In this document: positions 3,275 through 5,359 of the stretch, piece by piece
Position numbering within the stretch: the stretch's first letter is position 1
How the letters are laid out: every line of letters starts with the position of its first letter
Assembly (NCBI RefSeq): GCF_000214215.1
Contig: NC_015559.1
Coordinates: forward strand, 1,674,001-1,738,000
DNA length: 64,000 nucleotides
Reading direction: 5' to 3'
Source of the DNA: Marinomonas posidonica IVIA-Po-181
GTDB taxonomy: Bacteria > Pseudomonadota > Gammaproteobacteria > Pseudomonadales > Marinomonadaceae
Translations under genes and position numbers: made by a program
Notes under the pieces: model-generated
Seen by the model: the letters and a program-made list of their open reading frames with translations, nothing else
Databases searched by the model: none
Told to the model about the DNA's origin: nothing

Positions 3275-3319
3275 TGGGTAAAACGAGTGGTTATTTATTT
3301 ACCTTCCTTCCATAGAGGC

Positions 3320-3691
3320 TTATTTTGGCCAAGTAGCTTGTTTCGGCCATGTGGCTTGTTTTGGCCAAGTGGCTTGTTTTGGCCAAGTGGCTAGTTTCGG
3401 CCAAGAGGCTAGTTTTGGCCAAGTAGCTTGTTTCGGCCATGTGGCTAGTTTTGGCCAAGTAGCTAGTTTTGGCCAAGTAGCTTGTTTCGGCCAAGTAGCT
3501 TGTTTCGGCCAAGTGGCTTGTTTTGGCCAAGAGGCTTGTTTTGGCCAAGTGGCTAGTTTCGGCCAAGTAGCTAGTTTCGGCCAAGAGGCTAGTTTTGGCC
3601 ATATAAGGGCTTTGTGGTTGGTGACTTGATTGAAAAGGGATGGTTTTTTTGGCCAGTTAGGCAGGTTTTTGAACGTTACTTCGTGTTTCAT
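3320..3691 (-). CDS. Hexapeptide repeat protein WPK[QL]A[TS]x15
   Basis: 123 residues. The ATG at 3691 has AAGGA seven bases upstream. A 30-residue non-repeated N-terminus, which itself holds an N-W-P-K-K-P-S degenerate unit, is followed by 16 WPK motifs spaced six residues apart; the stop follows the last K directly. W, P, K and A are invariant. Of the variable bases in the 18-bp DNA unit, those in the P, A and T codons are synonymous in this frame, while the others give only Q/L and T/S. The overlapping frame (LA[KE]TS[HYL]) shows more replacements, so this is the best coding frame. No signal peptide. The repeat resembles no family I know; function unknown, and it may be only a DNA satellite with open frames. 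Confidence 0.5.
   Translation of the reverse strand: MKHEVTFKNLPNWPKKPSLFNQVTNHKALIWPKLASWPKLATWPKLATWPKQASWPKQATWPKQATWPKQATWPKLATWPKLATWPKQATWPKLASWPKLATWPKQATWPKQATWPKQATWPK
3323..3610. repeat. 18-bp tandem repeat, 15 full copies plus a partial
   Basis: Units of exactly 18 bp with consensus TTTYGGCCAAGTRGCTWG run head to tail from 3323 to 3592, followed by a degenerate 16th unit that merges into unique sequence. Each unit contains the palindrome TTGGCCAA or a one-base variant. Eighteen is a multiple of three, so copy-number changes keep the frame. No stop codon occurs inside the unit in several frames, which explains the overlapping open frames on both strands. Confidence 0.95.
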
Positions 3692-3840: not shown

Positions 3841-4032
3841 TTAGTCTTTAGCGTCCAAAGCTTTGGATTTGTCGGCTTGTATGCGTTTATAAATTTCGTG
3901 GCGATGTACGCTTATTTCACGTGGTGCTTTGATCCCAACCCTAACACAATTGCCCTGTACACCGAGCACGGTAACTTCCATATCGTCGCCAATATTGATG
4001 GTTTCACCTGGACGTCGAGTGACTATTAGCAT
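3841..4032 (-). CDS. csrA: CsrA-type carbon storage / translational regulator
   Basis: 63 residues, full length. The start [11 protein letters not shown], the core V-x-V-L-G-V-x-G-N-x-V-R-V-G-I-x-A-P and the RNA-contacting V-H-R at 42-44 are all present. CsrA homodimers bind GGA in hairpins of mRNA leaders and block or stabilise translation. It stands alone, not in the usual alaS or lysC setting of the housekeeping copy, so it may be an accessory paralogue. A perfect 16-bp palindrome lies 37 bases upstream, between a TTGACC -35 and a TGTATT -10, and matches the operators of the phage-type repressor encoded just upstream. Repression by that protein is inferred. Confidence 0.92.
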
Positions 4033-4066
4033 AATGATATTCCTTTACTGATGAGTACTGGTTAAA

Positions 4067-4094
4067 AATACAGTTAAAACTGTATTTCGGTCAA
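4067..4094 (-). promoter_or_regulatory. csrA promoter with embedded operator
   Basis: On the minus strand TTGACC (4094-4089) and TGTATT (4072-4067) are 16 bases apart. The spacer holds the perfect palindrome TACAGTTAAAACTGTA (4069-4084); with flanking bases it extends to 22 bp (4066-4087). It fits the ACAR-N6-YTGT pattern shared by the three sites at 4769-4829, so the same repressor or Cro protein probably binds here. Confidence 0.55.
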
Positions 4095-4133
4095 CAGTTT
4101 TTGTTGTTTATTTTGATTAATCCTTATTGTTGT

Positions 4134-4757
4134 TTAGCAAAGGTGTCGTTTTGCCTCTTTCGCTACACCAATGATTTCCATATCAGAGTTCAATTGAACA
4201 GGGAGATAATTGGAATTAAGTGGTTTTAAATAGCGATTTCCAGCATCCATCACCAGTTGTTTAAAGGTGATTTCTTGTGAAGTGTTTAATTTTGCCAGCA
4301 CCAGATCGCCATGCTTCGGTGAGGCTTCTGGCTCGATTAAAATGAGATAGTTTTCAGGGATGCTTAAACCAGATATGCTGCTCATGCTGTCGCCGATCAC
4401 CATGAACCAAAATGCTTTCGATGAAGCGCTGTGTGGGGCTTCTAACATGGTATCTGCGGTCGAATCTTGTCGGCCAAACAGAGTATTTTGGCTTAACAGT
4501 GGGCGCATGTTGTTAGTAGAGTTCTGATTATTGTAGCGGCTCCTTTCCTCACGCACTTCGTCAAGATGACCTGATAGAAGCCACTCTGGATCACAACGAA
4601 GCTGTTTGGCAAGGGACAGTAATTTGCGTGGGTTTTGGGTTCGGCCATCTTCGATTTTCTGTAAAGACTGCTGAGTAATACCGACACGTTTGGCTAACTC
4701 TGCTTGAGTTAGTGCCAGTTCCATCCGTTTTTCTTTAACGCGTTTTGAAATGCTCAT
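4134..4757 (-). CDS. Phage-type repressor: XRE HTH plus S24 peptidase domain
   Basis: 207 residues. Residues 1-62 form a helix-turn-helix (A-E-L-A-K-R-V-G-I-T-Q-Q-S-L-Q-K-I-E). Residues 115-207 are an S24 (LexA/CI) domain with the catalytic Ser124 in G-D-S-M and Lys166 in I-T-F-K. The linker shows no Ala-Gly or Cys-Gly cleavage dipeptide, so RecA-stimulated self-cleavage is doubtful. Divergent from the Cro-like gene at 4844 with 86 bp between them that hold three operators, as in lambdoid phages; csrA lies downstream on the same strand. No other phage gene is nearby, so this seems a domesticated or decayed prophage switch. Confidence 0.85.
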   Translation of the reverse strand: MSISKRVKEKRMELALTQAELAKRVGITQQSLQKIEDGRTQNPRKLLSLAKQLRCDPEWLLSGHLDEVREERSRYNNQNSTNNMRPLLSQNTLFGRQDSTADTMLEAPHSASSKAFWFMVIGDSMSSISGLSIPENYLILIEPEASPKHGDLVLAKLNTSQEITFKQLVMDAGNRYLKPLNSNYLPVQLNSDMEIIGVAKEAKRHLC

Positions 4758-4768
4758 CCGAGGATAGT

Positions 4769-4829
4769 TACAACTTTATCTGTATTTGACAAACAGTATA
4801 AGTTGTTTTTAGATACAATAAAGGTTGTA
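4769..4829. promoter_or_regulatory. Three lambda-like operators between repressor and cro-like genes
   Basis: Three 16-bp imperfect palindromes of form ACAR-N6-YTGT: O1 at 4769-4784 (TACAACTTTATCTGTA), O2 at 4792-4807 (AACAGTATAAGTTGTT) and O3 at 4814-4829 (TACAATAAAGGTTGTA). Centres are 23 and 22 bp apart, about two helical turns, so dimers could bind cooperatively on one face. TTGACA at 4786-4791, between O1 and O2, is a likely -35 for the rightward gene; O2 and O3 cover where its -10 and start should be. Confidence 0.65.
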
Positions 4830-4843
4830 TATAAGGAGGTAGT

Positions 4844-5050
4844 ATGTCAGCGATAGCAAAAGCAGTCGAAGTAGTAGGGAGTCAAACTGGATTAGCGAAA
4901 ATATTAGGAGTTAATCAATCTCATGTCTGGAACTGGCTGCACATTCATCATAGGTGTCCAGCAAAGTATATCCGCTTAACGGCGTTGGCAACGAAGGGCG
5001 AGGTGAGTGAAACTGAGTTGTTAATTGATCATGAAATAGCGCGTCAATAA
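4844..5050 (+). CDS. Cro/YdaS-like DNA-binding protein
   Basis: 68 residues, preceded by AAGGAGG. The order V-G-S-Q-T-G-L-A-K-I-L-G-V-N-Q-S-H-V-W-N-W is the helix-turn-helix of the Cro/YdaS (CI-like antirepressor) family. In phages Cro turns down the repressor promoter to favour lytic genes. Here it faces the S24 repressor across three shared operators and is followed at once by a strong terminator, so it is the only gene of its transcript: there is no downstream lytic operon. The switch must therefore act on other promoters, perhaps csrA. Confidence 0.8.
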   Translation: MSAIAKAVEVVGSQTGLAKILGVNQSHVWNWLHIHHRCPAKYIRLTALATKGEVSETELLIDHEIARQ

Positions 5051-5085
5051 AAACGCCTTTCGCTGCATTGAGGGAAAGGCGTTTT
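5050..5085 (+). terminator. Rho-independent terminator of the cro-like gene
   Basis: AAAACGCCTTTC (5050-5061) pairs perfectly with GAAAGGCGTTTT (5074-5085). The stem begins at the stop codon of the cro-like gene and ends in a T run. Confidence 0.85.
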
Positions 5086-5143: not shown

Positions 5144-5359
5144 TTAGCTGTCGCTCGGTTGTTCTCCCGGCGGTATGATGTTTTTCTGATGCAATTCATT
5201 TTCATCATGGCTTGCTCCGCTAATGGGGCGAATGTGGCCATTATCGCGATAGAAGCCAATGTCTTTTAAGTAATGGTCATCTAGATGACGGAATACTTGG
5301 TTCGTGCGACGAGCTTCGAAATAGTCTTTAGCGGCGTTAAATAAAGCGATGATACTCAT
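5144..5359 (-). CDS. DUF1127 (YjiS-like) small protein
   Basis: 71 residues. The central R-H-L-D-D-H-Y-L-K-D-I-G-F-Y-R (about residues 24-38) is the DUF1127 signature. The domain is a short Arg/aromatic-rich helix that in alphaproteobacterial small proteins has been tied to phosphate and carbon metabolism or RNA binding; in this group the role is unknown. TTTGGAGAA precedes the ATG. A possible 33-residue ORF lies 90 bases upstream on the same strand and could be a leader or partner. Confidence 0.8.
   Translation of the reverse strand: MSIIALFNAAKDYFEARRTNQVFRHLDDHYLKDIGFYRDNGHIRPISGASHDENELHQKNIIPPGEQPSDS

Follow-up and report, generated by a model that had tools for sequence, protein, structure and literature searches.

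Why does a Marinomonas genome carry a second csrA gene directly beyond what appear to be the repressor and Cro of a temperate phage, and do the operators of that pair also govern csrA? The answer reached here, which is considered probable, is that the locus is a domesticated immunity region of the lambda/P22 kind that has been uncoupled from the SOS response, in which the repressor, together with Cro where it has been kept, would repress csrA at a PL-like promoter.

Genes and operators of the locus

The window is a 64-kb stretch of a single-contig genome of 3.9 Mb (G000) from Marinomonas, and all relatives found with a matching locus are likewise Marinomonas. The genes concerned and the terminator are:

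3841..4032, minus strand: csrA2, encoding a 63-aa RNA-binding regulator of the CsrA/RsmA family (Pfam CsrA, 84.3 bits against a cut-off of 27)
4134..4757, minus strand: S24/CI-type repressor with an HTH and an S24 peptidase-fold domain, its Ala-Gly cleavage site lost
4844..5050, plus strand: Cro of the YdaS / P22-Cro-like family, 68 aa (Pfam PF15943, 61 bits; PHROG 35 'transcriptional repressor')
5050..5085, plus strand: hairpin terminator of the cro transcript (-20.9 kcal/mol, z = -3.5, UUUU at its end)

The csrA2 gene is a paralogue of csrA1 (at G000:743749), to which it is 63% identical. It is monocistronic in the window and a PL-operon gene in related prophages, and in the relatives inspected the genes that follow csrA are unrelated and mostly on the opposite strand, so that csrA stands alone. 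The CsrA2 of the window has R6, R7, V42 and R44 and may bind GGA-containing RNA; in several other species residues known to contact RNA are altered, by R7H or otherwise, and RNA binding by the changed proteins may differ from the usual. The repressor matches the profiles Peptidase_S24 (67.5 bits), HTH_3 (48.4 bits) and PHROG 4 repressor, and the Cro stands at 45% to the Cro of Salmonella P22-like phages. An earlier note on this DNA had given cro a terminator of its own and no phage structural or lysis genes as neighbours; the strong hairpin bears out the first, and no such genes were seen among the flanking ORFs that were scanned. CII, replication and structural genes were not found in the window, and the prophage relatives have them. 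Nor was ydaT found after ydaS, cro being followed by its terminator and an unrelated gene on the opposite strand.

Two further features of the surroundings can be recorded. The interval between cro and yaeQ holds a small ORF (5144-5359, 71 aa) that is conserved in most species with the locus and has no Pfam or PHROG match, and just downstream of csrA there is a tandem array (3317-3601) of 15.8 copies of the 18-bp unit GGCTTGTTTTGGCCAAGT, which is open in several frames.

The promoters and operators, the latter given without strand and named after lambda, are:

4065..4094, minus strand: predicted csrA promoter (the PL equivalent), -35 TTGACC at 4094-4089, 18-bp spacer, -10 TATTTT at 4070-4065
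4069..4084: OL1, TACAGTTAAAACTGTA, in the csrA-promoter spacer (17.8-18.1 bits), kept in 20/21 yaeQ-locus csrA genes
4093..4108: OL2, AACAGTTTTTGTTGTT, 24 bp from OL1 and overlapping the upstream edge of the csrA -35 (18.4 bits)
4769..4784: OR3, TACAACTTTATCTGTA, between the -35 of the repressor promoter and the repressor start, near-invariant in the listed yaeQ-locus copies
4786..4791, plus strand: -35 TTGACA of the cro promoter PR
4792-4787, minus strand: -35 TTGTCA of the repressor promoter
4792..4807: OR2, AACAGTATAAGTTGTT, in the cro-promoter spacer and at the upstream edge of the -35 of the repressor promoter
4814..4829: OR1, TACAATAAAGGTTGTA, in the -10/start region of the cro promoter

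The four operators that had been proposed beforehand are all where they were said to be. The site at 4069 had been described as a perfect palindrome, which is true of its 7-bp arms, but a central AA breaks the full palindrome. It does fall within the spacer of that promoter of csrA, as was claimed, but it is not the sole operator there, the second at 4093-4108 having been missed. The csrA promoter was called by consensus match only; its -10 is weak, and its -35 beside the operators is kept in relatives. For the repressor promoter (4757-4792) the likely start point is at or adjoining the ATG, thus the mRNA made from it probably has no leader, as has been reported for lambda cI and paaR2.

Single sites of the form ACAR-N6-YTGT are common, with 9 found in the window against 5.1 expected. 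Pairs at the operator spacing are another matter, the whole 3.9-Mb genome containing only OR1-OR2, OR2-OR3, the csrA pair and one pair between two convergent 3' ends, and a reversed control pattern gave zero such pairs in the whole genome. When a PWM was trained on the OR sites of other species, with the species of the window and its two nearest relatives excluded, the top five 16-mers in the window were OR1-3 and both csrA sites (15.8-18.4 bits), with the next at 11.0 bits. The promoter of the housekeeping csrA1 has no comparable site by this PWM, its best being 2.2 bits. A chance origin of the sites is ruled out by the rarity of pairs, the PWM ranking and the conservation described below. 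The remaining pair (G000:C1:2452062-2452099, locus L201) lies 3'-3' in the gap separating a GGDEF-domain gene from a CobW-like one and is probably a chance match; as it is the only other pair in the genome, the idea of a wider regulon was rejected.

Conservation at yaeQ and loss of the cleavage site

The order csrA–S24–cro is found in 19/50 Marinomonas genomes and adjoins yaeQ in all 19. Loss of the palindrome from relatives that keep this order had been named in advance as the result that would count against the csrA operator, yet it is retained in 18/19 species, in which its distance from the csrA start codon is nearly constant. OL2 is more variable, scoring at least 13 bits in 13/21 relatives and being degenerate in about 8/21 copies. 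The exception for the palindrome is G002 (locus L016), where the three genes and OR are kept and the operator at csrA is absent, which suggests that control of csrA is dispensable there. Other species have lost other parts. In G017 and G049 cro is not detectable and the -35 of its promoter reads TTAACA or CTAACA in place of TTGACA, with S24, csrA, OR1-3 and OL1 all kept, whilst G029 has lost csrA and kept S24 and cro. The persistence of the rest in the species without cro argues that whatever is being preserved does not depend on two-state behaviour.

These losses, together with the disappearance of CII, replication and structural genes and the absence of the cassette at yaeQ in about six related genomes, could be taken as signs of a prophage remnant in decay that no longer has a function. 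Such a reading is very improbable, as a single clade in 22 species has stayed at one locus with low dN/dS and with conserved non-coding operators. Pairwise dN/dS is mostly 0.02-0.2 for csrA, S24 and cro, and purifying selection acts on all three genes. In the S24 tree the repressors of the yaeQ locus form one clade (100/99) that adjoins the CI proteins of csrA-bearing prophages. The evidence for a common origin is drawn from this tree only, as in the yaeQ tree short flanks cut off S24 at some loci; the yaeQ tree, read by hand, fits one gain and about six losses of the cassette.

The repressors themselves have changed on domestication. The column of the cleavage site reads VQAG in prophage repressors, and in 22/22 yaeQ-locus repressors the Gly or the whole motif has been lost, leaving none with Ala-Gly. 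Two of them have in addition replaced the catalytic Ser by Asn. LexA/CI proteins without a cleavage site should not cleave themselves. The locus had previously been called a lambda-type switch, which stands in so far as it has a domesticated repressor/Cro pair, but with the self-cleavage site gone it is not a normal inducible one. It has the CI-type repressor, the divergent Cro around three spaced operators and the OL/PL beyond the repressor that mark an immunity region, and the window lacks a self-cleavable repressor and linked CII, replication and structural genes. Judged by its sequence, the region is therefore a derivative and not a working inducible member of the lambdoid group. Because the Ala-Gly site is lost, the trigger would probably be the level of the repressor or another signal, and not cleavage through RecA/SOS.

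Prophage relatives and the operator swap

Searches of IMG/VR and of genomes found prophages in Marinomonas that have cro–S24–csrA in a matching arrangement (L158, L166, L160, L122 and L136). In these csrA comes first or early among the genes beyond the repressor and points toward the integrase, which is found beyond csrA wherever the prophage stretch extends far enough. A CII-like gene follows cro, and terminase, portal and tail-sheath genes were found in the two prophages that were traced further. The prophage csrA thus occupies the place of lambda N, which makes the csrA operators OL and the csrA promoter PL. The short csrA leader CCAAAGGATAGGAAT is common to most chromosomal and prophage copies. 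As prophages share both the arrangement and the leader, an operator newly arisen at a host csrA is ruled out, and from this comparison csrA is best described as a gene that arrived with the phage, as the first of the PL operon, and not as one newly recruited by the switch.

In L158, L166 and L160 the sites OR1, OR2 and OL2 are longer by a single base in the middle, because of which the yaeQ-locus PWM scores several of their OL sites poorly; the OL sites of these three were assessed by eye against the OR of each prophage.

The prophages also offer a natural exchange of specificity. L136, L090, L091 and L092 have a different HTH, a different Cro and OR sites of the CTTAGGAAAACTTAAG type, and their csrA genes have at least three sites of this same type, the csrA promoter of L136 having three CTTAGGAAAACTTAAG-like sites. 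At the csrA of these four no ACA-N8-TGT site was found, with a best score of no more than 5.9 bits. The csrA genes of L136 and L158 are identical at 283/306 nt (92%), and the C-terminal parts of their S24 proteins at 100/130 aa, whereas the N-terminal, DNA-binding parts agree at 28/82 and the Cro proteins are unrelated. The csrA operators therefore co-vary with the repressor and Cro, which indicates that they are read by that pair. The claim that the csrA promoter belongs to the operator set of the switch is thereby upheld, since the prophages with swapped immunity change their csrA sites along with the repressor type. This swap is the strongest sign, short of an experiment, that the repressor/Cro pair reads the csrA operators, and the placing of csrA under the control of the repressor/Cro operators is strongly supported by such comparisons.

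The OR sites of L122, TACAACTTTATCTGT and ACAATAAAAACTGT, match those of the yaeQ locus. It could thus be argued that the chromosomal repressor serves in superinfection immunity, shutting down incoming phages of the csrA family with csrA and OL as passengers, and firm immunity would be expected of uncleavable repressors. As the explanation of the locus this is unlikely, as it leaves unexplained both the purifying selection on csrA and cro and the retention of OL1 in species without cro, and G005 (M. aquiplantarum) has both the cassette and a related csrA prophage in its genome. Such immunity may nevertheless be compatible with repression of csrA from PL as the main explanation.

The CsrA of several prophages is itself unusual, being 100-114 aa long with a first CsrA copy of ~38 aa (strands 1-4, no helix) fused to a complete CsrA (L158:2473-2778, L136:6775-7077, L166:957-1265, L122:8432-8776 and L090-L092). 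An AlphaFold2 model of the fusion has a mean pLDDT of 90.6 and its best PDB matches are RsmE/RsmA/CsrA (E 0.0025-0.03); the extra copy is possibly a built-in half of the dimer. Next to a prfC-like gene, L083, L084, L085 and L095 have another S24/YdaS pair, which is diverged and has four ACA-N8-TGT operators. In L083 a large gene resembling those for conjugation proteins lies nearby, from which the pair possibly sits in an SXT/R391-like integrative element.

Direction of control and comparison with known switches

The direction in which csrA is controlled is inferred to be repression. A repressor dimer on OL1, between the -35 and the -10, would shut csrA off, and repressor on OR1/OR2 would shut cro off, hence csrA2 and cro would be expressed together when the repressor is low and both be off while it is present. 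In return, Cro bound to OR3 and OL would dampen the repressor and csrA. The CsrA2 produced would act on mRNAs in parallel to the housekeeping CsrA1 or in competition with it.

It could instead be that repressor on OL2 activates csrA, so that csrA2 would be expressed in the repressor state and silent in the Cro state, as OL2 stands to the csrA -35 as OR2 stands to the -35 of the repressor promoter and the spacing of the sites is 24 against 23 bp. This is quite improbable, as the conserved site is OL1 in the spacer (20/21), where binding should block polymerase, whilst the upstream OL2 is weak or absent in about 8/21. The position of csrA in the phages is moreover that of PL, and we know of no lambdoid phage in which PL is not repressed. 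Expression data from one species bear on the same point. The genome G020, which we take to be that of M. mediterranea, has a prophage csrA, and by elimination this is the CsrA2 of that species. In M. mediterranea the expression of CsrA2 is very weak (36 normalised counts, where CsrA1 has 1208; PMC8523701), a near silence that counts against activation and fits a gene under repression in a lysogen, although the degenerate OL of this csrA and its place outside the yaeQ locus limit the argument.

The locus can be set beside known switches. As in lambda and P22, with their order OL-cI-OR-cro, a divergent repressor and Cro surround three spaced operators, a second promoter beyond the repressor has additional operators, and the repressor leader is very short with an mRNA that is probably leaderless. 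Unlike them, the first gene after OL is csrA instead of N, and the window locus is without rex, CII, replication and structural genes, lies in no prophage and has a repressor without Ala-Gly. Another such switch is that of the cryptic prophage CP-933P, which has YdaS as Cro, PaaR2 as CI and a PL, and whose paaR2 / ydaS-ydaT switch was measured as bistable (PMC8630535). Common to both are a CI-like repressor, YdaS in the role of Cro, a PL promoter and persistence in a cryptic element; the output of CP-933P is a toxin-antitoxin pair in the repressor operon, whereas here it is csrA behind OL. Two-state behaviour at the Marinomonas yaeQ locus is possible by analogy, because this YdaS-based switch of a cryptic prophage is bistable (PMC8630535).

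The same family has another history, PF15943 carrying the Pfam name 'Bacterial toxin YdaS' and RacR/YdaS of E. coli having first been reported as toxin-antitoxin (PMC5700373), so that the YdaS protein might be a toxin that the S24 protein keeps under control. This is scarcely credible here, as the YdaS of CP-933P binds operators and acts as Cro (PMC8630535), and the prophage YdaS occupies the place of Cro before CII and resembles the annotated Cro of P22-like phages.

Lambda-type OL and OR operators are textbook material. Also already known are YdaS in the role of Cro and the carriage of csrA by phages, with the gene on 30/2,517 phages (PMC7366521); it occurs in 85 records of the phage collection, and in phage JC1 it lies among the head genes (PMC9144972). 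A literature search found no report of a phage csrA under OL/PL control, nor of a bacterial genus in which such a region has become fixed and has lost the cleavage site. As a tentative generalisation, less likely than not and more open to doubt than the reading of the locus itself, a family of temperate phages might use CsrA, an RNA-binding global regulator, as an early PL gene in the place of N, by which host mRNAs and perhaps those of the phage would be redirected upon induction, with Marinomonas having fixed this switch as a heritable, SOS-independent and possibly bistable one leading from transcription to translation.

The locus brings together phage immunity switches and post-transcriptional control by Csr, fields that seldom touch, and its origin accounts for the second csrA in Marinomonas. 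The prophages provide a naturally replicated swap of operator and repressor specificity. With three genes and five sites the locus is a small and clear system for testing how a phage decision circuit turns into a host regulator once it has lost the SOS trigger and then, in some species, Cro.

The Providencia phage PSTCR8lys has, just after cI (L232:4246-4292), two operators 23 bp apart that mirror its OR. They precede an operon with a short ORF and csrA, a likeness to the Marinomonas csrA behind OL by which the arrangement extends beyond Marinomonas.
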